Positions 1 to 32,521 of a stretch of DNA of 32,567 nt are shown piece after piece. A program made the translations under genes and the position numbers. Within the stretch, counting starts at the first letter, position 1, and each line of letters opens with the position of its first letter. The notes under the pieces are model-generated. The model saw nothing but the letters and a program-made list of their open reading frames with translations, ran no database searches and was not told the DNA's origin. The DNA comes from Candidatus Omnitrophota bacterium (GTDB lineage Bacteria; Omnitrophota; Omnitrophia; Omnitrophales; JACQLI01). The stretch spans positions 1 to 32,567 of the forward strand of contig JACPCP010000020.1 in NCBI GenBank assembly GCA_016179745.1, read 5' to 3'.

Positions 1-179
1 ATTCCTTCCGCATCAAACAGCTGTCTTGGCTGATCCCGGTTCGGGGTAATTTCGTCAATGGGAATCAGCTCAAGCCCCTCAACCCGAGCTTCCGTTCCCG
101 GGGTCGTTTGAGTTTCAAGACGGCCGATATAACTATCCGGAATCAATGAGCTTAAGCCTCTTCCGAGCGCTTTCTTCAC
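1..179 (-). CDS. parB: ParB chromosome-partitioning protein, N-terminal part (cut by window edge)
   Basis: Only the first 59 codons are in the window. The translation opens with KKALGRGLSSLIP, the conserved ParB N-terminus that stimulates the ParA ATPase, and reaches the start of the CTP/parS-binding domain at LELIPIDEITPNRDQPRQ. The start is a GTG (177-179) that overlaps the parA stop codon as GTGA, so the two genes are translationally coupled. ParB loads on parS and spreads as a CTP-dependent clamp; a parS site lies at 1020-1035. The identification rests on the N-terminal motif plus position directly after parA. The DNA-binding and dimerisation domains lie outside the window. Confidence 0.93.
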   Translation of the reverse strand, partial: MKKALGRGLSSLIPDSYIGRLETQTTPGTEARVEGLELIPIDEITPNRDQPRQLFDAEG

Positions 180-1027
180 GGCGTTTTCTCCTCTCCAATC
201 TGAACCTCGATTGAGTCTCTCGGTTTTTGTTGATCTAGCGATTCGCCGTGTGAGACTGCGGGGAATCGCTCGATAAATTCGCTAACAACCTCCTGGTAAC
301 ATTTTGAACCTTTGGATGCAGGGTCATAGACAATCCCGGGCTGCCCGAAACTGGGCGCTTCACTTAACCGGACTGAGCGCGGGATCACCGCTTTGAACAC
401 TTTCTCCTTAAAATACGTCTGGACTTCCTGAATCACCTGCTCTGTAAGCTTTGTTCTGAAATCAGCCATGGTCAAAAGGACACCGCCGATCTCAAGCGCC
501 GGATTGAGTTTTTCCTTCACCAGCGTGAATACCTGCAGTAATTGCCCCAGTCCCTCTAATGCGTAATACTCACACTGCAAAGGAATTATGATAAGGTCGC
601 TTGCCGTCAGTGCGTTAACCGTCAATAGCCCAAGCGAGGGGGGGCAGTCGATGAAAATGTAGTCATAATCTACTCGAGCCCTACTTATGGCCTTCGAGAG
701 TCTAAACTCCCTCTCGTCAATAGAGATAAGTTCGATATCGGCCCCGCTTAACTCACTATTTGACGGAATGATGCGAAGGTTCTTTATTTTTGTTTCTACT
801 GCTACGTCCTGTGGGTTTAAATTATCAACAATCAACTGATATGTTGTGGATAAGGCGCCTGTTTTTGACACTCCAAGACCGCTCGTGGAATTGCCCTGGG
901 GGTCAAGGTCGATAAGAAGGATTTTGTGATCTCTTTGAGCGAGGCCCGTGGCAAGATTGATGGCTGAGGTGGTTTTCCCGACCCCGCCTTTTTGATTACA
1001 GAAGGAGAAGATTTTTGTATGTTTCAC
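176..1027 (-). CDS. parA: ParA/Soj chromosome-partitioning ATPase
   Basis: This 283-residue protein is a deviant-Walker ParA ATPase. It has KGGVGKTT at residues 13-20, including the signature lysine, a DLDPQGN motif near 41-47, and a Walker B-like FIDCPPS segment. ParA dimers coat the nucleoid and, with ParB-parS, move replicated origins apart. The start is a GTG lying inside the parS palindrome, and no better start is seen upstream, where only a weak Shine-Dalgarno is visible. The C-terminus runs about 25 residues past the usual end. The gene overlaps parB by 4 nt. It is the sixth gene of a leftward series beginning at rpmH, with a 97-bp gap after mnmG, so it may also have its own promoter. 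Confidence 0.95.
   Translation of the reverse strand: MKHTKIFSFCNQKGGVGKTTSAINLATGLAQRDHKILLIDLDPQGNSTSGLGVSKTGALSTTYQLIVDNLNPQDVAVETKIKNLRIIPSNSELSGADIELISIDEREFRLSKAISRARVDYDYIFIDCPPSLGLLTVNALTASDLIIIPLQCEYYALEGLGQLLQVFTLVKEKLNPALEIGGVLLTMADFRTKLTEQVIQEVQTYFKEKVFKAVIPRSVRLSEAPSFGQPGIVYDPASKGSKCYQEVVSEFIERFPAVSHGESLDQQKPRDSIEVQIGEEKTP
822..853. promoter_or_regulatory. Pair of DnaA-box-like 9-mers inside parA
   Basis: TTATCAACA at 822-830 is one mismatch from the consensus TTATCCACA. TGTGGATAA at 845-853 is a perfect consensus box on the other strand. They face each other 14 bp apart, inside parA coding sequence. Either could be chance, but the pair lies close to parS. A role as a DnaA titration or origin-accessory site is inference. 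Confidence 0.3.
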
Positions 1028-14664: not shown

Positions 14665-14751
14665 GGAGAGGTGGCAGAGCGGTTGAATGCGGCGGTCTTG
14701 AAAACCGTTAGGTCCTTCGGGATCTCCCGAGTTCGAATCTCGGCCTCTCCG
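14665..14751 (+). tRNA. tRNA-Ser(TGA)
   Basis: The full cloverleaf can be drawn: acceptor GGAGAGG/CCTCTCC, anticodon loop CTTGAAA (anticodon TGA), a long variable arm (TAGGTCCTTCGGGATCT), and T arm GAGTTCGAATCTC. The discriminator is G and CCA is not encoded. The long variable arm and anticodon give serine. It reads UCA and related codons and lies 93 bp after serS. Confidence 0.95.
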
Positions 14752-14818
14752 GAAATCAAGCATTTAATCTGACTCCATTCTCAAAGGACGCTGGGACGGT
14801 TGGGGGTTTCAGGTATTT

Positions 14819-14834
14819 GGAGAGGTGGCCGAGC
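14819..14834 (+). pseudogene. tRNA-Ser 5' fragment next to homing endonuclease gene
   Basis: GGAGAGGTGGCCGAGC matches the first 16 nt of tRNA-Ser(TGA) at 15 of 16 positions and shares its first 9 nt with tRNA-Ser(GCT). No matching 3' half follows; the sequence runs into the endonuclease reading frame. It looks like the remnant of a tRNA-Ser split or duplicated by the inserted gene. Confidence 0.6.
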
Positions 14835-14853
14835 TTGGCCCAGGAAACACGTT

Positions 14854-15516
14854 GTGGGAAGTCTGAAATCGATTAAAATTCCGGGTTGTTCCGAAACATT
14901 GGCGGAATTCCTAGGAATATTTTTGGGAGACGGCAATATTCGCAGCGATTTCCAGATCGCTGTTTCGTTCAACCTGAAAACAGAACAGCTCTACGCCGAT
15001 TATGTGTCCTGGCTAATCGATTCTTTGTTTGGCTTAAAGGCCTCAACCCGTTATCGGTTTAATTACGGAGGCGGAGAGCTGGTAGTTAATAGCCGCCGTT
15101 TGGTGGAATTTTTATACTCCCAAGGAATGACCAAAGGAGACAAAATTAAAAAGGGCGCCTCCCTGCCTCGTTGGGTTTTTGATAATGAGCAGACAAGAAA
15201 TGGTGCGGCAAGAGGCTTATTTGATACCGATGGGTGCGTTTACAAGCACAGCTATCTTGTGAGGGGGGCCGTTTATCAGTATCCGAAATTAGCCTTCACA
15301 TCTTATTCTAGGATAATCCGGAAACAATTCGCCGAGTTGCTTACACTGTCGGCCTTTCATCCAAAGGAATATGGCAATCGAGTCTGCGTCTATTCACAGA
15401 AAGAGGTGTTACGATACTTTCAGGAGATCGGGACCCATAACCCAGCTTACCAGTTGCGCTTTGAACGTTTTTGCGAAGACGTTGAGTTAGAGTCGCTTTT
15501 TTATGCAACAGCCTAA
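14854..15516 (+). CDS. LAGLIDADG homing endonuclease
   Basis: The protein has two LAGLIDADG-type helices: LAEFLGIFLGDG (residues 16-27) and AARGLFDTDG (118-127), each ending in the metal-binding acidic residue, about 100 residues apart as in single-chain enzymes. Such proteins cut long target sites and spread their own genes, usually within introns or inteins; here no intron core was recognised around the frame. I chose GTG 14854 (220 residues) because AGGAAA lies about 8 nt upstream; the frame extends up to a TTG at 14800 and would then run through the tRNA-Ser fragment. The TAA stop directly abuts the first base of tRNA-Ser(GCT). Base composition is more A/T-rich than in neighbours, consistent with transfer. 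Confidence 0.85.
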   Translation: MGSLKSIKIPGCSETLAEFLGIFLGDGNIRSDFQIAVSFNLKTEQLYADYVSWLIDSLFGLKASTRYRFNYGGGELVVNSRRLVEFLYSQGMTKGDKIKKGASLPRWVFDNEQTRNGAARGLFDTDGCVYKHSYLVRGAVYQYPKLAFTSYSRIIRKQFAELLTLSAFHPKEYGNRVCVYSQKEVLRYFQEIGTHNPAYQLRFERFCEDVELESLFYATA

Positions 15517-15769
<253 letters not shown>

Positions 15770-19392: not shown

Positions 19393-19478
19393 GGCGCCTT
19401 CACTCTTTTTGATCTTTGATATTTGATCTTTGGTTTCTTCTTATTCCCCGGTAGCTCAATGGTGGAGCATCCGGCTGT

Positions 19479-19725
19479 TACGAGGTTAGCAGCTCTCAGA
19501 GGAAACTCTGAGATGAAAAGCGGGCTAAGTCAGGGAAACCTAAAGCCCCAGGGCCAAGGCAATCCTGAGCTAGCATCTTGATTCTTCGCCTTTCCCTCTC
19601 CCTTTTAGGGAGAGGGTTAGGGTGAGGGGCAAGAGGGCAAGTGCAGAGACTTTACACCCGCTACCCTAACGTCGAGTCGAGGGTAAAGAGAAAGTCCGAC
19701 TCTCTGAGCAATCAGAGTCAGATCG
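19479..19725 (+). ncRNA. Group I self-splicing intron in tRNA-Asn (247 nt)
   Basis: P1 pairs exon GGCTGT (ending 19478) with the guide GCAGCT (19489-19494), giving the required U-G pair at the 5' splice site. P10 pairs GGTTA (19484-19488) with exon 2 TAACC. The intron ends in G (19725). P2 is TCTCAGAG/CTCTGAGA with a GAAA loop (19494-19513). P3 is AGCGGG (19519-19524)/CCCGCT (19657-19662). P4-P5 holds GGCAATCCTGAGC, as in cyanobacterial tRNA-Leu introns. P7 is GACTTT (19648-19653)/AAAGTC (19691-19696), P8 ACCCT/AGGGT (19663-19684), and P9 GACTCT/AGAGTC (19698-19719). This looks like subgroup IC3. No ORF is present. Self-splicing is expected from the fold, not shown. Confidence 0.93.
19594..19630 (+). 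repeat. Palindromic interspersed-type repeat inside the intron
   Basis: CCCTCTCCCT (19594-19603) and AGGGAGAGGG (19607-19616) form a perfect 10-bp hairpin, followed by TTAGGGTGAGGGGC. This wording closely resembles a palindromic repeat found scattered in many bacterial genomes. It occupies a peripheral loop between the P4-P5 region and P7, so it extends the intron without disturbing the core. Confidence 0.65.
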
Positions 19726-19765
19726 TAACCGGAGGGTTGCTGGTTCGAGTCCAGCCCGGGGAGCC

Positions 19766-19804
19766 AAAATTGGCGGGGCCACGTCTTGTGGCCTTGCCAA
19801 TTTT
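19766..19804 (+). terminator. Hairpin terminator after tRNA-Asn
   Basis: AAAATTGGC (19766-19774) pairs with GCCAATTTT (19796-19804), and inside it GGCCAC (19777-19782) pairs with GTGGCC (19788-19793) around a 5-nt loop. The 3' arm ends in TTTT and is followed by GTTTCTT. Its A-run/T-run arms could make it work in both directions. Confidence 0.8.
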
Positions 19805-23755: not shown

Positions 23756-25198
23756 ATGCGGGCACTCATCTTCGCTTTTATGGGCCTGGTCTTTTTACGA
23801 CCCTTCGCCGTCCAGGCGGGGACGATCCCGGACCAATTGTCTCAAGAGTCCGGGGATTGTCTCGAATGCCACCGGGGCGAGACGCCTGCCATTGCGGAAC
23901 AATGGGGGTCGAGCAAACATTTCCGGGCGAATGTCTCCTGTTACGAATGTCACCAGGCCCAGCCAGGCGACCCCGATGCCTTCGACCATAATGGATTCCT
24001 GATCTCCACCATTGTCTCTCCCAAGGATTGCGCCCGGTGCCACACGAAGGAAGTAAAGGAGTTCGAGAGTTCGCACCACTCAAAGGCAGCCCGGATTCTC
24101 GGTTCACTCGACAACCGTCTTGCGGATGTGGTGGAGGGAAACCGGGGGTTTGTCACCGAAGGGTTCCCGGAAGGGGTCTCGGCCGCCGCCGTCAATGGCT
24201 GCTGGCAATGCCACGGCGCCGAAGTGAAGGTTTTAAAAGACGGCAAACTCGATCCCACCACCTGGCCCAATACCGGGATCGGAAGGATTAATCCTGACGG
24301 CTCCGAGGGCTCCTGCAGCGCCTGCCACTCCCGGCACAAGTTTTCCGTCGAGCAGGCGAGAAACCCCGAGAATTGCGGCAAATGTCACATGGGCCCGGAC
24401 CACCCGCAGATTGAAATTTACGAAGAATCAAAACACGGGGTCGCCTTTCATGCCAACAAGCACAAGATGAATTTGGACAATGAGAAGTGGGTCGTAGGCG
24501 AAGATTACAGCGCTGCGCCGACCTGTGCGACCTGCCACATGAGCGCCACCCCCAAGCAGGGCGTCACGCATGATGTGGGAATGAGGATCAGCTGGAACAA
24601 CCGGCCGGAGATGTCGATCCGTCCGGAAGTTTCGGACGCCAATATGGGTCTCCCCGGCAAAGACGTGGACTGGAAGACCCGGCGCAAGAACATGAAAGAT
24701 GTCTGTCTCAATTGCCACGCCGGGGGTTTTGTGGAGAGTTTCTATCTTCAATATGACGAATTGATCAAGCTCTACCACGAAAAATTCGCCGAGCCCGGGA
24801 TGGAATTGATGAAACTCGCCAAACCGCTTCTGAAGCCCGTGCCTTTCGGAAACAAGATCGACTTTATCTGGTTTGAGATCTGGCACCACGAGGGCCGCCG
24901 GGCCCGCCACGGCGCCTCCATGATGGGACCCGACTACACCCACTGGCACGGGACCTATGAAGTGGCGAAAAACTTCTACTCCGAATTCATCCCCGAGCTT
25001 GAGGAATTGGCCGAGAAGAACCTCGGCGCTCCGGACCCCGAAAAGGCCAAGGCCGCACAGGCCTTGAAGGCCAAGATTGATGAGGTCTTGAGCTCCAGCA
25101 ATCACAAGTGGTTCCTCAATCAAATGGACCCCCAAGAGGCGGACAAACGGAAAAAGGAGCAGGAGGAGTTTCAGCGCCGCTACGAGGCGAAGTCCTAG
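23756..25198 (+). CDS. Octahaem cytochrome c of the hydroxylamine oxidoreductase family
   Basis: The 480-residue protein has a signal peptide (MRALIFAFMGLVFLRPFAVQA, cleavage after Ala21) and exactly eight CxxCH haem sites, with first Cys at 35, 62, 92, 149, 187, 207, 257 and 317. Spacing and the C-terminal block IWHHEGRRARHGASMMGPDY match HAO-type octahaem cytochromes, which oxidise hydroxylamine or hydrazine, or reduce nitrite or hydroxylamine. Tyr394 in DYTHWHG could be the Tyr that crosslinks haem P460, absent in reductive members; this needs alignment. It is exported, so it acts outside the cytoplasmic membrane. The ATG has AAAGGAG 7 nt upstream. No NrfH-like or quinone-linked partner lies beside it. 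Confidence 0.9.
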   Translation: MRALIFAFMGLVFLRPFAVQAGTIPDQLSQESGDCLECHRGETPAIAEQWGSSKHFRANVSCYECHQAQPGDPDAFDHNGFLISTIVSPKDCARCHTKEVKEFESSHHSKAARILGSLDNRLADVVEGNRGFVTEGFPEGVSAAAVNGCWQCHGAEVKVLKDGKLDPTTWPNTGIGRINPDGSEGSCSACHSRHKFSVEQARNPENCGKCHMGPDHPQIEIYEESKHGVAFHANKHKMNLDNEKWVVGEDYSAAPTCATCHMSATPKQGVTHDVGMRISWNNRPEMSIRPEVSDANMGLPGKDVDWKTRRKNMKDVCLNCHAGGFVESFYLQYDELIKLYHEKFAEPGMELMKLAKPLLKPVPFGNKIDFIWFEIWHHEGRRARHGASMMGPDYTHWHGTYEVAKNFYSEFIPELEELAEKNLGAPDPEKAKAAQALKAKIDEVLSSSNHKWFLNQMDPQEADKRKKEQEEFQRRYEAKS

Positions 25199-25587: not shown

Positions 25588-25646
25588 ACGCCCTTCGTTT
25601 CGCCGGGGCCCGGTTAATACAGGCCCTGGCGCCGAAGGGCGTTTTT
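25588..25646 (+). terminator. Strong two-part intrinsic terminator
   Basis: ACGCCCTTCG (25588-25597) pairs with CGAAGGGCGT (25633-25642). Inside it CGCCGGGGCC (25601-25610) pairs with GGCCCTGGCG (25622-25631) with one G-U. TTTTT follows. A smaller CCCTCGA/TCGAGGG stem (25547-25576) precedes it. It closes the zinc-ribbon transcript and insulates the giant gene downstream. Confidence 0.85.
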
Positions 25647-25717: not shown

Positions 25718-28700
25718 ATGAACCAAGGGATTACAAAACACCAAGGGAATTTCGTTCTCCGTTGCCTGCCTTGGCTTGCCTGGGCCGTTTGGGCCGTCGT
25801 GATTTTCCCCTCCGGAGAAGTTGCCGCCTCCTCATCTTTTAATCTTCTGGAAGCCAAAGAGCGGGGGACGCTCACCGCCGGCCCGGCCAAAGCCAGCGTC
25901 ACTCCCACCGTGGATGAAGTGACCGATAAGGATGTCCTAGAACTTTCCTACTCCCTCCCCGAAGAGTCCGTTGCCAGCCTCTGGGTCCGGGGGTTTCCTG
26001 CCGGATTGAACGAGACGGCCGTCAACACCGCCCAGATCGGCATCCGGCTGCCGGGTCCCGGCCAGGCAGATCAAATTTTAGTCACGGCGGAATTCAGGGG
26101 ACCCAAAGGGGTCCAGGCCACGCCGCTTCGCCTGAAGTCCGGCTGGAATTCCGTCCCCATTTCCATCGACTGGGAGGCGGTCGGCGGGCTCGAAAAAGTT
26201 TCCTTTGTCGTGAGTCCGAGAGGGAAGACTGCGCCTGTGAAGGGCACCCTCTCATTGGCCCTCGAGTTTGTCCAGCGGGCGCCTCCCCCCCAAGCCGCTG
26301 CTCCAAAAAACAATTTTCCTCTTTTCACTCTTTTCGATGCCGGCGAGAAGGGGGTCTTCAATATCGGGCCCTCCAGGGGCGTGATCCGGAACGTCTTTGA
26401 CGAGGCGCTCGGCAGGGAGATTTGGGCGTTCGACTATTCCGTTCCGGTCGGGTCCATCGTCGGTGTCTGGACCAAAAGTTATTCTTCCGATTTGGCAAGG
26501 ACGTCCGTGGATGCGGTGAGGATCGGGGTCGGCGTGCCGAGCGTGGATGAGCTGAATCAGGCGGCGGTCAAGGTGGAGATCAAGGGGAGCGCAGGGATGC
26601 AGACGATCCCCCTCAATCTAAAGGCGGGGCGGAATTCTTTGGGAGAGCCCCTTAATTGGAATACGATCGGGGAACTCCGGGAGGCGGTTTTTGTCGTCAT
26701 GCCGATGACGGACGGCTTTACGGGCGGGAGCCCTGTCGAGACAGGCCGGACGGGGGAGGCCTCCTGGCTCAGCGGCACGCTTTATTTTGATCTCGAATTC
26801 GGCCGGCTCAATTTCTTCGAAAAGAACTTCGCCTTCATCAGGGTGGGTTTGGTTGTCCTGACGAGTTTTCTCCTGGCCCTGCTGGCGCTTCTTTTTACGG
26901 GGCGTCGGTCTTCAAAGCAAATCCCGGGAGAGAGGGAAGGCGGGGAAGAAACGGCAAAGTCCTTTTTCAAAATCCTCCGGCGGGATTTTTTCTGGGGGAC
27001 GGCAGCCGTTTTGATCGGGGGGGCAGCGGCCGCTCTTTATTCTCTCGGGACGGCGAACCCTCTCGAGGAGGGCCTGAGTTTAAATTTCCTCGGGGTGGCG
27101 ATCTGGGGCGCCCTGATTGCGGAGTTTCTGAAATTCGGGCTTTGTCGTAAGCACCTGACCCCGGCTGAAGTTTTTCAGAATGTTCTTGTGACCGGCCTTT
27201 TAGCCGTTGCCTCGAGCCGGCAGGAACTCCTTGAGTCCCCGGCGAGCGGGATCGAGCTCTTGATGTTCAGCCCCTTAGTCGCAGCAGTGACCTTTCTTGT
27301 TTATCACATTGCCAATGCCTGCCGGCTGGCCTCTTCCGGCCGGTCTTTAAGGGCCCTTCCGGCGGTCTTGATCGTGGGGACCCCCTACCTTTTTAACTGG
27401 CTGCTTTTGGTGGAAAACCCGACGCTTCTCGAAAGCGTGGTCAACGGAATCACAGGGCGGCTTCTCTCACGTTGGCCGGCAGTTCTGGAGGGGATCGGCA
27501 GGCTCCTCGTGGTGTTTGTCTTCAATGAAGCGATCACAAACGGCATGGGCCTGGCCACTCAGGGGCGGGTCCTCAAAACTTTCAAGGCGCACCTTTTTGT
27601 CCTTTTTGTTTCTCTGGGCGTGGTCGTTTCTCCCGGGATTGCAGATTTGGGATCGACCCCGGCGGTGGGCTCACTCCCGCCGGCTCTCGGGGCCCTCGCC
27701 GCCATTTTGGCCACGCTCGTCTCCTTTGGGGGATTGTGGGGGGAGGTCTATCTCATTACCGGCGTCCTCCTGGACGGCGGACACCGGAAGGCCCCGACGT
27801 GGGAGACCCTTTCCAAACACGTGACCGTTGGGATGAAAAAGGGAATGGCTTATAGCGGCATCTTGATGGGGCTTTTGTATGCGCTCTATCTCCTGTTGGG
27901 ACTCTCCGGGTCGCAGAGCCTCATGGCCCAGGCGCCGATCGGAATTGGAATCCTCGCCGGCGCCCTGATTTTTCCTCTCCTCAAAACCATCATCGAGACC
28001 TTTGACGGAAGCCTGCCTTTTTTCGAGCGGGTGCGGTTTAGTTACCGGCAGATGCCCCTTTATGCCCGGGGGGCCGTGGCCGGGTTCGGGTTTTCCGTGA
28101 TGGCAACCGAAGGGCTCTTTCAGGAAGGGATGTCCGAGAGAATTGTTTTCGGCCTGGGGATCGGCCTTCTCGCCTCGGGGGGAGTGAGTCTTCTGAGGGA
28201 CGCCGTCTACGCCTTCAAGGGCCAGGGGCGGATCCAGTCCTGGAAACTTTATCTGGTCGATTCCCTCCTGGGTATTTTTGTCGGGAGCGCTGCGGCCTTC
28301 TACCTCGACCGTCTGCAGATTCCCGTGATCATCGAAAAATTCAAACTCTACACGAGCTCCGGATTTTCCGCCGTGGATTACGTCACCTATCCCTTGGTCA
28401 ACAAGTGGGGCCGGATTGATTTGGGGAGTTACACGGGCGGGGCGAAGCTGATTTATCTCGAGTCCCTCGCCGGGGTCATCAACTGGTCCATTGCGGCCTG
28501 GCTTTTCGCCATCAACAAAGTGTTCCTGCAGGCCTTCTTTGAAAAGAACACCTCCCCGATCAAATTTTTCTTCTCGAAGGCCGGCTTTGCCCAGCTCGTT
28601 GAACACATGATCTATGTCCTCCGGTGGGGCCTCTGGATGGCGCCCATCATCTTCACCTTTCTCCGGATGATGCCGGACCCCACCTGGTATAACCAGGACG

Positions 28701-31700
28701 GTGCCATCCGGACCCTCTTCGCCCTTTACCAGAATGCCGCCCTCACGCCCGAGGCCTTCCAGGCCTGGAGCCTCAAGATTTTTATTTTCATGATGGCGTT
28801 TGATTTCCTCCGCGTTTTGATTTGGATGGACCACATGGGCCTCCGGGTGGCAACCTTGGTGAACCTGAGTTTCATCGGGCTCGACCGGCTCGATGAGCGG
28901 ATCGCCCGCTTCATCGGGCCGGCCGCCGCCCAGCGTTACATCCCCGAGGCCGTGAAGCGGTTTGCGACCTGGGCCCCGCTCCTCCTTCCTTTTTATATTC
29001 CGAGGGGCGAGGAGTGGGAGTATGCCTGGAGCACGTCGGAGGCGATGCAAAATGCCGCCCGGGGGAAGGGGGTTCTCTCCTGGCTCGGGTCCCTCACGTT
29101 CGTCCAGAGGCTTGCAGTGATCGGTTCTGCCGTCTTTGTGGGCACTCTGATCTCCTTTGCGGTTCGCTCCCTCCGCCGCCGTTCCCGGGCCCGCCGGATT
29201 CAAGCCTTTGAGATTCAAAACCGGGAATATCAAGTGGTTCTCAAGGAAAACGGCGCACTCCACAGTGAGTCGCTTCAAAAGGAACACGACTTAAGCCGCC
29301 GATCCTACGACCCGCTCGACCCCTCCGGCCGGGTCCTCTTTCTGGTGGATTCCGCACACCAGGCCGGGAGTGCGGCCGCCTTCTGGCCGGTTGTCGGGAA
29401 TTTCCCCCAGGACCGGTTCGAACGGTCCCGGATTGAGGGGGATGAGGATTCCCTGAGGATTTTCAATGTGAACCACTTCATCAAGACAACGGTTGAAATT
29501 CGCCTGCCCGATCCCGACACTCCGGCGGAGCTTTGGGAGATCACGGTTGAAAATCTCACGGCCGAGGCCCGTTCCTTAAAAATGGTCCCCTATCTGGAAT
29601 GGGTCTTGAATGGAGGGATCCACGACCGGTTTCACACCCAATACGCCCGGCTCTTTCCTGAAATGGAATACGTGAGTGAGGCCCATGCCATCCTGGCCTG
29701 GCACAAGGGAACCAAGGCGATGGGGATCCTGGCAGCGGACCTTCCTCCGGAAGGTTTCCTCACTTCCCGAATGGATTTCATCGGCCGGGCCCGGAGCCTT
29801 TGGGACCCCCGGATCTTTGAGACCTTTAACTTTCAAGAAGCCCGGGCGGGGGACCCTTACCCCACCTTTGACCCGATCGGGAGTCTCTTTATTCCTTTGA
29901 CGGTGGGCCCAAAATCGTCACAAAAAATTCGTCTCATGATGGGCTTTGTCAAAAACAGGGAGACGGCCCTTCCCTTGATCCGGAAATATTTGAATCCTCA
30001 TCCTGCCGGCGCTCTTGTCCCGCCCCGGGCCTTCAAGAAGCCGCCCTTGATCGGCCATGGTGAAATTCCTCCGGAGACTCCCCAGCCTTACGCCGAATTT
30101 ACGGAAAACGGGGCAAAGCTTTGGGTCCACACTCCCTTCACGCCACGGCCTTATGACCACGCCCTGTCGAATACGGTCCATTCCGTGATGGTCACCAACC
30201 GGGGGCTTCACACCTCCTCGAACGGCAACTCCCAGCAAAACCGGCTCACCCCGGACTCGCCCGACACGGTGACCCAGGGAGTGCCGGCGGAGGCGATTTA
30301 CCTTTACAACCCCGATCAAAACGAATGGTTTTCGCCAACCTATCATCCCCTGAACCATCGAGACGCAAAGCACGAATCCGAATTCGGCGTCGACGGGACA
30401 GCCGTCTTTCATATGAAGCAGGGGACACTCTCGACGGAACTCATTGTCTTCGTCCCGCCGAAAGACCCCGCCGGGGTTTATCTTTTGACCGTGAAAAATC
30501 ACGCCAGGCAGCCGAGACGGATGCGGATCGCCCCCTACTTCCAGATGGCTTTGGCCTTCCAGCCGGAACGGTCCGGCCCCCTCGAGGTGAAACACGACAA
30601 GGCCTCCGGGGCCCTTTTCTTTAGAAATCCCCGCAATCTGTTCCGTTCGGGTTGGGCCTTTGCCTCCCTGTCCCTTCCGGCCGAGCGGGTGGAGACGAAA
30701 CGGGGCCGGTTTTTTGGAGCGGGCCGGGGCGTGGACCGCCCCTTTCTGGTCGAAAAAGGCCGGCCGGATGTGACGGAGCTTACCGATGCAAGACAGATCG
30801 CCGCTTTCCTCGGGACGATGGAAATCCCGGCCGGGGGCGAATTCACCGTCGCCGTGGTCCTGGGGCAGACCGAAAGCCGGCGGCAGGCGCTTGAGCTAGT
30901 TCGGAAATACAAAAATATCGAAGAGGCCCGGAAGAGTCTCGCCCAAACCCGGGAATGGTGGACAAATCTCATGGCGACGGTCGAGGTCGAGACCAGCCTG
31001 CCGGAGTTTGACCGGTTTCAAAATTGGCTCAAATACCAGGCCCTGGCCGAGCGCATCTGGCCCCGTCGGGGTTTCTATCAAACAAGCGGCGCCTTCGGTT
31101 TCCGGGACCAGCTTCAAGACACGGTCAATTTGATCTGGGTCGATCCGGCGCTTGCCCGCAAACAAATCCTTTTGCATGCCTCCCACCAGTTTATCGAAGG
31201 CGATGTTTATCACTGGTTCTTTACGTTGACCGACGGGCGGACGGCCTTTGCATGCCGCTCGCACGCTTCGGACAATCCGCTGTGGCTGGCCTGGGCGGCG
31301 GCGGAATATGTCCGGACGACGGGAGACGATTCCCTCCTGGACGAAATGGCCTCCTACGTGGCCGCCGAGTTTCCCTTTGCGCCGCTCCCCAAGAACAAGC
31401 AAGGCTGGGGGCATTTGTATCACCGCTCCACCCGTGCGGATTCGGTTTACCGGCACTGCCTCCGGTCCATCGATCTCGTGCTGGAAAAACGAATGGGCAA
31501 ACACGGCCTGCCCCTGATGGGGACCGGGGACTGGAATGACGGCCTGGATGAAATCGGAAGCGAGGGGAAGGGGGAAAGTGTTTGGCTCGGCTTTTTTCTT
31601 TATTACATCCTGAAGGAGATGCTTCCTCTTATCGAGAAAAAAGAAGGTCGGGGCCGGAAAGAGCATTACTTGAAAAAAATGGAAAGGCTCAAGACCGCCC

Positions 31701-32521
31701 TGGACGGGACGTGGCGGGGCGACCGGTATTTGAGGGCCTTTCACGATGACGGCACGGAGATCGGCGTCAAGGCGAGCGGGATTTGGGAGATCGATTCTCT
31801 GACGGCGGCCTGGGCCGTGATGTCCGGCATCCATCCGGAACGGGAGCTCACCGTGTTTAATACGGCCCTCGGTGTTCTTGAAAAAGAAGACACGATCCTT
31901 TTGGGCTGGCCGGCGCTCCGGGAGGGCACCCAACCCTACCTTGGGAGGAGCAGCAAATATCCCGAGGGGGTCCGGGAAAACGGGATGTATTGCCACGGTG
32001 TTCAGTGGCTCGTGAGGGCGGCCCGGATTTTGGCGGAGAGATTCGAAGGCGAAGGAAATTTTTCCAAAGCGGCGGAATACCGCCAGACGGCCTACCGGCT
32101 CTGGCTCAAGATCTCGCCGATCTCCCATGTTGTCCCGGAAAAAATTGAAATCTACGGCGGCCAACCCAACAAACAGGCGGCGGACATCCTGACCCATTTT
32201 GATTCCGGGCGGATGATCTGGCACGGCTACACGGGCGCCGCCGGCTGGATGCTCCGCCAGGCGATGGAAGGCGTGGTGGGGGCCTCCCTCGTCAAAAACG
32301 AACTCATTCTCCCGTCTGATCTGGCGAAACCCCGGGGCGAATTAAAGATCAACCGTGTGTCGAGGAATGTAGAGAAAAGCCCCTTAGGCTCCAACGGGAA
32401 ATTTCCGGAAGAGACTCCGCAACCCTCCCGCCGAACCCCGGTTTCAAAGAGAAAAATCAAGGTCCTCCTGACCCGACCCCCAAAATTAAAGCCGGTTGAA
32501 AAGCGAGTCTCCGGGTGGTAA
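25718..32521 (+). CDS. Giant membrane protein with C-terminal GH94 (cyclic glucan synthase-like) module
   Basis: The 2267-residue protein has a signal or anchor helix (about 17-37), two similar beta-rich domains (about 38-190 and 200-362), roughly 17 membrane helices between 372 and 1150, two large beta super-sandwich regions (about 1169-1410 and 1461-1715), and an (alpha/alpha)6-type catalytic domain (about 1760-2185). The last shows GFRDQLQD (from 1794), GDWNDG (1937-1942; the first Asp is the expected general acid), GKGESVWLG, IDSLTAAWAVMSG and YTGAAGWM, as in the GH94 part of NdvB/Cgs. GH94 enzymes phosphorolyse beta-glucosides, and in NdvB/Cgs this part trims glucan length. I find no GT84 domain. 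A basic tail of about 80 residues ends it. The natural substrate and the side of the membrane are unknown. It starts ATG 25718 without a Shine-Dalgarno; another gene follows after 23 bp. Confidence 0.85.
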   Translation: MNQGITKHQGNFVLRCLPWLAWAVWAVVIFPSGEVAASSSFNLLEAKERGTLTAGPAKASVTPTVDEVTDKDVLELSYSLPEESVASLWVRGFPAGLNETAVNTAQIGIRLPGPGQADQILVTAEFRGPKGVQATPLRLKSGWNSVPISIDWEAVGGLEKVSFVVSPRGKTAPVKGTLSLALEFVQRAPPPQAAAPKNNFPLFTLFDAGEKGVFNIGPSRGVIRNVFDEALGREIWAFDYSVPVGSIVGVWTKSYSSDLARTSVDAVRIGVGVPSVDELNQAAVKVEIKGSAGMQTIPLNLKAGRNSLGEPLNWNTIGELREAVFVVMPMTDGFTGGSPVETGRTGEASWLSGTLYFDLEFGRLNFFEKNFAFIRVGLVVLTSFLLALLALLFTGRRSSKQIPGEREGGEETAKSFFKILRRDFFWGTAAVLIGGAAAALYSLGTANPLEEGLSLNFLGVAIWGALIAEFLKFGLCRKHLTPAEVFQNVLVTGLLAVASSRQELLESPASGIELLMFSPLVAAVTFLVYHIANACRLASSGRSLRALPAVLIVGTPYLFNWLLLVENPTLLESVVNGITGRLLSRWPAVLEGIGRLLVVFVFNEAITNGMGLATQGRVLKTFKAHLFVLFVSLGVVVSPGIADLGSTPAVGSLPPALGALAAILATLVSFGGLWGEVYLITGVLLDGGHRKAPTWETLSKHVTVGMKKGMAYSGILMGLLYALYLLLGLSGSQSLMAQAPIGIGILAGALIFPLLKTIIETFDGSLPFFERVRFSYRQMPLYARGAVAGFGFSVMATEGLFQEGMSERIVFGLGIGLLASGGVSLLRDAVYAFKGQGRIQSWKLYLVDSLLGIFVGSAAAFYLDRLQIPVIIEKFKLYTSSGFSAVDYVTYPLVNKWGRIDLGSYTGGAKLIYLESLAGVINWSIAAWLFAINKVFLQAFFEKNTSPIKFFFSKAGFAQLVEHMIYVLRWGLWMAPIIFTFLRMMPDPTWYNQDGAIRTLFALYQNAALTPEAFQAWSLKIFIFMMAFDFLRVLIWMDHMGLRVATLVNLSFIGLDRLDERIARFIGPAAAQRYIPEAVKRFATWAPLLLPFYIPRGEEWEYAWSTSEAMQNAARGKGVLSWLGSLTFVQRLAVIGSAVFVGTLISFAVRSLRRRSRARRIQAFEIQNREYQVVLKENGALHSESLQKEHDLSRRSYDPLDPSGRVLFLVDSAHQAGSAAAFWPVVGNFPQDRFERSRIEGDEDSLRIFNVNHFIKTTVEIRLPDPDTPAELWEITVENLTAEARSLKMVPYLEWVLNGGIHDRFHTQYARLFPEMEYVSEAHAILAWHKGTKAMGILAADLPPEGFLTSRMDFIGRARSLWDPRIFETFNFQEARAGDPYPTFDPIGSLFIPLTVGPKSSQKIRLMMGFVKNRETALPLIRKYLNPHPAGALVPPRAFKKPPLIGHGEIPPETPQPYAEFTENGAKLWVHTPFTPRPYDHALSNTVHSVMVTNRGLHTSSNGNSQQNRLTPDSPDTVTQGVPAEAIYLYNPDQNEWFSPTYHPLNHRDAKHESEFGVDGTAVFHMKQGTLSTELIVFVPPKDPAGVYLLTVKNHARQPRRMRIAPYFQMALAFQPERSGPLEVKHDKASGALFFRNPRNLFRSGWAFASLSLPAERVETKRGRFFGAGRGVDRPFLVEKGRPDVTELTDARQIAAFLGTMEIPAGGEFTVAVVLGQTESRRQALELVRKYKNIEEARKSLAQTREWWTNLMATVEVETSLPEFDRFQNWLKYQALAERIWPRRGFYQTSGAFGFRDQLQDTVNLIWVDPALARKQILLHASHQFIEGDVYHWFFTLTDGRTAFACRSHASDNPLWLAWAAAEYVRTTGDDSLLDEMASYVAAEFPFAPLPKNKQGWGHLYHRSTRADSVYRHCLRSIDLVLEKRMGKHGLPLMGTGDWNDGLDEIGSEGKGESVWLGFFLYYILKEMLPLIEKKEGRGRKEHYLKKMERLKTALDGTWRGDRYLRAFHDDGTEIGVKASGIWEIDSLTAAWAVMSGIHPERELTVFNTALGVLEKEDTILLGWPALREGTQPYLGRSSKYPEGVRENGMYCHGVQWLVRAARILAERFEGEGNFSKAAEYRQTAYRLWLKISPISHVVPEKIEIYGGQPNKQAADILTHFDSGRMIWHGYTGAAGWMLRQAMEGVVGASLVKNELILPSDLAKPRGELKINRVSRNVEKSPLGSNGKFPEETPQPSRRTPVSKRKIKVLLTRPPKLKPVEKRVSGW

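Follow-up and report, generated by a model that had tools for sequence, protein, structure and literature searches.

A GH94 phosphorylase module joined to a long membrane region and twin N-terminal beta domains, without GT84, in Candidatus Omnitrophota

Organisation of the locus

The window, that is, the whole stretch of 32,567 nucleotides analysed, is contig C18 of a 1.5-Mb genome that is 79% complete and distributed over 25 contigs. Its right end is occupied by a single long reading frame, and the contig finishes 46 bases past the stop codon. The frame and its parts, all on the forward strand, are as follows.

25718..32521, +, reading frame of Candidatus Omnitrophota with an ATG start, 2267 amino acids, without internal stop
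25718..25831, +, N-terminal signal peptide or signal anchor, residues 1-38, hydrophobic at 12-30 (hydropathy and direct reading)
25829..26278, +, CBM-like jelly-roll beta domain 1, residues 38-187 (AF2, Foldseek, VIA)
26327..26803, +, CBM-like jelly-roll beta domain 2, residues 204-362 (AF2, Foldseek; cross-matching repeats in relatives)
26813..29197, +, membrane region of about 18-19 helices, residues 366-1160, matching no known family or fold
28355..29050, +, membrane core, the part of highest conservation, residues 880-1111 (40 relatives)
29219..30007, +, GP1-like first super-sandwich of the Cgs-type phosphorylase, residues 1168-1430 (phmmer)
30143..30865, +, GH94 super-sandwich PF06165 (GH94_b-supersand), residues 1476-1716 (Pfam, 211 bits)
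30956..32281, +, GH94 catalytic barrel PF17167 (Glyco_hydro_94), residues 1747-2188 (Pfam, 224 bits)
31526..31540, +, GDWND motif with the catalytic Asp D1941, residues 1937-1941, aligned to D2528 of Cgs

Pfam recognises two stretches of GH94_b-supersand and the Glyco_hydro_94 barrel in the 2267-residue protein and nothing else. By hydropathy, residues 12-30 form a strong hydrophobic stretch followed by a signal-like region. Upstream of the frame lie a terminator-like hairpin at 25623-25643 (three such sites were found, against 1.0 in shuffles), a small CxxC-rich frame read by eye, and a multihaem cytochrome c gene at 23756-25198 (Multi-haem_cyto, Cytochrome_C554). The upstream genes look unrelated, and within the window nothing ties the frame to an operon.

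Two further features were observed elsewhere in the window. A group I intron (Rfam RF00028 at 19469-19718, 70.6 bits) splits a tRNA-like gene at 19447-19766; the joined exons of this gene look by eye like tRNA-Asn(GTT), and ARAGORN does not list it. A LAGLIDADG_3 frame at 14800-15513, possibly a homing endonuclease, is located between the tRNA-Ser genes at 14665-14751 and 15517-15612.

The phosphorylase module

Both Pfam matches of the C-terminal half exceed the curated cut-offs (23 bits for PF06165 and 27 bits for PF17167). The best PDB match of the GH94 module is Cgs (8rf9) with 354 bits, the next being cellobiose phosphorylase with 141 bits; no SOGP chain is among the listed PDB matches of the module at E <= 0.001. 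Ahead of the Pfam domains, residues 1168-1430 match the GP1 subdomain of Cgs (residues 1546-1805 in 8rf9; phmmer, i-E 2.2e-5), and the GP2-GP3 part shares about 31-33% identity with Cgs. Only 33 residues separate GP1 from GP2, against about 228 in Cgs, hence the Rossmann-like insertion is absent. The first-pass annotation had described this half as two super-sandwiches plus a catalytic barrel with GDWND that follow NdvB/Cgs closely. The composition is as described, with the GP1-like domain, PF06165, PF17167 and GDWND at 1937-1941, and Cgs is indeed the best PDB match, but the level of identity and the missing insertion make the likeness less close than was stated.

The motifs of the active site align to those of both Cgs and cellobiose phosphorylase, and GDWND, GFRDQLQD, CHGVQW and YTG do not vary in any family member that covers them. 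The residue to which D1941 aligns, D2528, is the catalytic residue of Cgs (PMC11842490). From the sequence, the module should be enzymatically active, and its linkage specificity is probably beta-1,2, as suggested by the similarity to Cgs and by the neighbouring genes. The 1,2-beta-oligoglucan phosphorylases (Lin1839; SOGP of L. phytofermentans) are GH94 enzymes as well, and SOGP is reported to have the same three-subdomain build as Cgs (PMC10901819). SOGP is, however, soluble and cytosolic, whereas the GH94 module described here is fused to a membrane region and CBM-like domains.

Absence of GT84 and of other synthase signatures

In Cgs the phosphorylase follows a GT84 synthase, and GT84 was searched for with a positive control from the same phylum. 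Some Omnitrophota also encode GH94 genes in frames of 2596-2964 residues, of which four that resemble one another were taken (L132, L133, L134, L135). The N-terminal 1300 residues of L135 match Cgs 8rf0 with 909 bits over the NTD, the GT84 domain and a portion of the cyclase. Judging from this match, a canonical Cgs with GT84 does exist in Omnitrophota, and the search detects GT84 when it is present. In the genomes of L133 and L132 (G034 and G033) the GT84-less protein is present as well, so both types coexist.

In the same PDB search, residues 1-1180 of the window protein gave no match to Cgs (8rf0 or 8rf9) at E <= 10, and neither did a 22-sequence profile of the membrane region. Alignment of the membrane profile with Cgs N-termini by hhalign returned a probability of 0.15%, and hmmsearch of the profile against the four Omnitrophota Cgs proteins gave nothing above a negative score. 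A GT84 concealed in the membrane part is therefore ruled out by sequence, profile and hhalign searches with a positive control. A GT2 on contig C21, considered as a GT84 candidate, matched nothing in the PDB at E <= 0.001. The motif scan found no QxxRW in the entire 2267-residue protein and no DxD in residues 352-1180; no GT2 (GT-A) synthase domain was found, the model of 352-1180 being helical and QxxRW absent. A cyclase domain of the PF10091 type is absent from the chain according to Pfam, and PF10091 genes occur separately in the same genome.

Because searches for GT84, for the cyclase domain and for the Rossmann-like insertion all came out negative, the protein is a member of GH94 by its features and not a Cgs. 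The two have in common a C-terminal GH94 with matches to GP1, GP2 and GP3 in a membrane protein of more than 2000 residues. They differ in those three elements, in the membrane part, whose approximately 19 helices are unrelated to that of Cgs, and in the two outer CBM-like domains of the window protein.

The membrane region

For residues 352-1180 of the window protein Pfam gives nothing at E <= 1, and for the corresponding region of 22 relatives only weak and inconsistent matches. The 22-sequence profile has no match among PDB sequences at E <= 10; residues 1-1180 as a single query yielded a chance match (E 2.1). The AlphaFold2 model of residues 352-1180, built from 40 sequences, is nearly all helix with a few short strands (mean pLDDT 81, pTM 0.79). 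Foldseek found nothing in the PDB for this model at E <= 0.001, the best hit having E 0.06 and TM 0.12. The top VIA row is AftA, a GT-C-like protein (Z 5.8, rmsd 7.1, 184 aligned residues), which is within the noise for helical models. These lists mean that no relative was found; they are not proof of a new fold, and absence from a list excludes no family. In sequence and in predicted fold, then, no known synthase that the membrane part resembles was found.

Mean conservation over residues 900-1100 is 0.84-0.91, the same as in the catalytic barrel. Among 40 relatives, 108 of the 232 positions of the core (880-1111) reach 95% invariance or more, and each of its 11 tryptophans is invariant. The sugar channels of known systems are lined by aromatic residues, and by analogy the invariant tryptophans might line such a channel, which is suggestive only.

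The same conservation can be read in another manner. The membrane module could be a new polymerase of non-GT-A type, using for example lipid-linked glucose, or an export channel, in which case GH94 would trim chain length as in Cgs and secreted PF10091, TPR and CBM proteins would process the product outside. It is in the membrane that the residues are most conserved, a pattern that an active site would show, and the GH94 part of Cgs is a length-control module (PMC10901819). Since the same type of GH94 trims the growing chain in Cgs, synthesis with export stays a real rival. Nevertheless, residues 352-1180 show no GT-A fold and neither of the two synthase motifs, and AftA, the sole GT-C-like match, does not rise above noise. 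Together with the gene context given below, this leaves synthesis and export possible but on the improbable side.

The position of GH94 relative to the membrane depends on the number of helices. Hydropathy gives 17-20, and the charge balance was scored in 40 sequences with the N-terminal side fixed outside and three uncertain helices optional. The best count was 19. That topology with GH94 inside scored best in 29 sequences, and a different choice of 19 helices, again with GH94 inside, in 2, so that the C-in arrangement was best in 31 of the 40; 18 helices with GH94 outside were preferred in 8, and 20 helices in one. The margin is small (mean 10.7 for 19 helices versus 9.5 for 18 with GH94 outside), and the segment that decides the topology, around 1020-1060, has the lowest AF2 confidence. 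An arginine-rich run immediately after the last helix, with about 9 Lys or Arg, favours the inside. GH94 is thus predicted to lie probably on the cytoplasmic side. If the 8 sequences with 18 helices were right, the protein would phosphorolyse or remodel an envelope glucan in the periplasm; the dense arginines point the other way, and the characterised relatives are cytosolic, namely all soluble domains of Cgs (PMC10901819) and Lin1839 (PMC3960220), which makes a periplasmic GH94 very unlikely.

The outer beta domains

The AF2 model of residues 38-366, based on 17 sequences, contains two beta-sandwiches with a mean pLDDT of 85. Foldseek lists first the CBM22 tandem of a xylanase (E 1.2e-9), together with CBM11 (E 5e-6), and both domains together match the whole length of the CBM22-CBM22 tandem 4xup. 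A chain of bacterial cellulose synthase, 5eiy_B, which we take to be BcsB, is among the matches with E 1.3e-4. VIA placed a xanthanase domain (Z 14.5), CBM11 (13.1) and the N-terminal domain of a beta-1,2-glucanase (PdSGL, 5z06; 12.1) in its list, and receptor domains rank lower in the same Foldseek and VIA lists. Jelly-roll folds are common. For this reason, and because receptor domains appear in the lists, a role of the twin domains in carbohydrate binding is considered likely, on the strength of the models, rather than demonstrated. The number of beta domains differs between relatives, and their repeats cross-match each other.

The first-pass annotation is thereby borne out in three respects: GT84 is absent, with the 909 bits of the Omnitrophota Cgs as positive control and nothing for the window protein; Pfam, PDB sequences, Foldseek and VIA reveal no known synthase in the membrane part; and the twin N-terminal beta domains are real and CBM11/CBM22-like. 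Its long run of helices stands too, but the 17 that it counted are better replaced by 19, the number more likely from the charge balance.

Distribution of the architecture

The full-length architecture recurs in Omnitrophota at about 57-66% identity, and nearly every relative taken from a named record belongs to Candidatus Omnitrophota. The membrane profile matches 43 of 384 Omnitrophota genomes, about 37 of them strongly, in open frames mostly of about 2050-2510 residues. Elsewhere it is sporadic: 7 of 294 genomes in the phylum of the Elusimicrobia locus, 4 of 44 in that of the Auribacterota locus, 1 of 392 in that of the Planctomycetales locus (Planctomycetota) and one Sumerlaeota locus. The Planctomycetales copy aligns over 2020 residues with 48% identity. 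Hence the phylogenetic spread, for which the first-pass annotation had proposed a check, extends from Omnitrophota to four other phyla, and the architecture is more than the chance product of a single genome. A fusion of two genes by assembly is ruled out, as the same fusion recurs across many genomes. The membrane part is fused to GH94 wherever contigs permit; the seemingly unfused copies in G1100 and G1098 are both cut by contig ends. One relative (L067:8461-14581) consists of two overlapping frames of 1231 and 817 residues with the break between GP1 and GP2, which may be a frameshift, an error or a true split. A search of the open-access literature found no description of, or named family for, a GT84-less membrane GH94 architecture.

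A phylum-wide search also gave weak matches to the membrane module inside extremely long frames, all from a single family of Omnitrophota (L114, L115, L116, L117, L118). These five giant or long frames score 26-72 bits, locally shuffled copies score 0 or less, and the matches retain both the order and key motifs, among them GLWMxPxI and the stretch PTWxNQxG. The frame of G157:C41 is open over all 15,303 codons of the contig without any N; that of G139:C111 is open over 25,048 codons but includes 287 N. In these two, the largest, no match to GH94 or to the beta domains was found. In the giant frames the module is richer in Ala, Gly and Ser and has far fewer hydrophobic peaks. By sequence, what lies inside the giant frames is a diverged form of the membrane module, shared with the window protein, while the two largest frames differ from it in having no GH94 or CBM-like match. 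A frame of 26,995 residues in G036 (C5) was rejected as a giant fusion, being an artefact of masked sequence whose matching fragment runs into N; a frame of 24,560 residues is reported in G004:C11. Giant proteins of Omnitrophota are described as having few annotated domains and poorly understood functions, and for one of them an action on surface polysaccharides has been proposed (PMC10066038); the frames found here are at most possible members of that class.

Gene neighbourhood

In one Omnitrophota lineage a single conserved run of genes surrounds the homologue (L061, L068, L072, L084, and similarly L087). In L061 it begins with a response regulator, a histidine kinase, a CBM11 protein, a PF10091 protein, a TPR protein and the GT84-less GH94 gene. 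After it come another PF10091 protein, two ABC permeases of sugar type, a gene without assignment and a ROK protein; the contig-side end carries a GH94 fragment. The PF10091, CBM11 and TPR proteins of this run have signal-like N-termini. Of the 30 loci that have 5 kb or more of flanking sequence, 8 have a PF10091-like gene nearby, where roughly one would be expected by chance (an estimate based on some 4 PF10091 genes in a 2-Mb genome); 6 of the 8 have the same operon layout and are not independent, and this shared ancestry weakens the count.

In the window's own genome, contig C15 (L058) carries a solute-binding (sugar-binding) lipoprotein, a GH94 without signal, and a PF10091 lipoprotein that is closest to the cyclase domain of Cgs and to 8wy1. 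Because parA lies at the left end of the window (176-1027) and parB at the start of C15, gene order suggests that C15 may adjoin the window, near the origin.

Taken by their gene content, the richest loci look catabolic, with secreted PF10091 enzymes, parts of a sugar ABC transporter and cytosolic GH94. The context bears on synthesis and export in both directions: the secreted TPR proteins and the neighbouring cyclase-like PF10091 proteins recall gene sets for the secretion of polysaccharides, but a sugar ABC transporter with a solute-binding protein is typical of uptake. The ABC permeases in the run of one lineage also admit a scaffold, in which the membrane part would bring GH94 beside an ABC importer that does the transport, the protein itself translocating nothing; the CBM domains and GH94 could indeed function without a channel. 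However, ABC genes are absent beside most loci, a mere anchor would need neither 19 helices nor a core that matches the catalytic barrel in invariance, and the module recurs in giant frames. A scaffold is accordingly judged unlikely, and both it and a periplasmic GH94 are less likely than uptake or synthesis with export.

Discussion

The reading that we favour, tentatively and with rather less than even confidence, is that of a membrane-integral glucan phosphorylase, with uptake of glucan at the outer face and phosphorolysis at the inner face. It is preferred because of the anatomy of the protein (sugar-binding folds outside, a conserved membrane module and a phosphorylase that is probably inside) and because of the catabolic-looking neighbours. 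At the outer face the two CBM-like domains would hold a beta-glucan chain, probably beta-1,2, for which the long membrane module could offer a path across the membrane. At the inner face GH94 would attack the end of the chain and release glucose 1-phosphate by phosphorolysis, which would keep the chain moving inwards and save ATP. The domains, the intact active-site motifs of GH94, the lack of GT84 and the conservation of the membrane core are observed; the substrate, the cytoplasmic side of GH94, the passage of the chain through the module and its inward course are inferred. Given the high phosphate of cells, phosphorolysis is the direction usually taken there; GH94 enzymes are nonetheless reversible, which counts against a fixed inward direction. 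Moreover, the same catabolic-looking loci already encode ABC permeases and soluble GH94, so that a second inward route is not needed. The earlier proposal of envelope glucan processing fits the gene context, while the glucan export suggested with it is not favoured, as the richest loci look catabolic.

The closest comparison in terms of working is BcsA-BcsB, and only in those terms: paired carbohydrate-binding folds outside, a long membrane part and a sugar enzyme inside. The window protein differs in having a phosphorylase in place of the GT2 synthase and in being one polypeptide. That it would be a phosphorolysis-coupled polysaccharide translocator, a single protein whose outer CBM-like domains capture a polymer and whose cytosolic phosphorolysis then pulls it along a membrane path of new fold, equivalent to translocation of the cellulose synthase type in reverse, is possible but rather improbable.

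The glycoside phosphorylases known to us are either soluble or form the trimming arm of Cgs. The conserved chain described here fuses GH94 to a 19-helix module, for which no known family or fold was found, and to probable sugar-binding domains outside, which suggests that glucan is moved or made at the membrane in a manner not described before. Moreover, the module would provide a sequence handle on the giant frames of Omnitrophota, as a conserved and testable part in proteins said to have few annotated domains.
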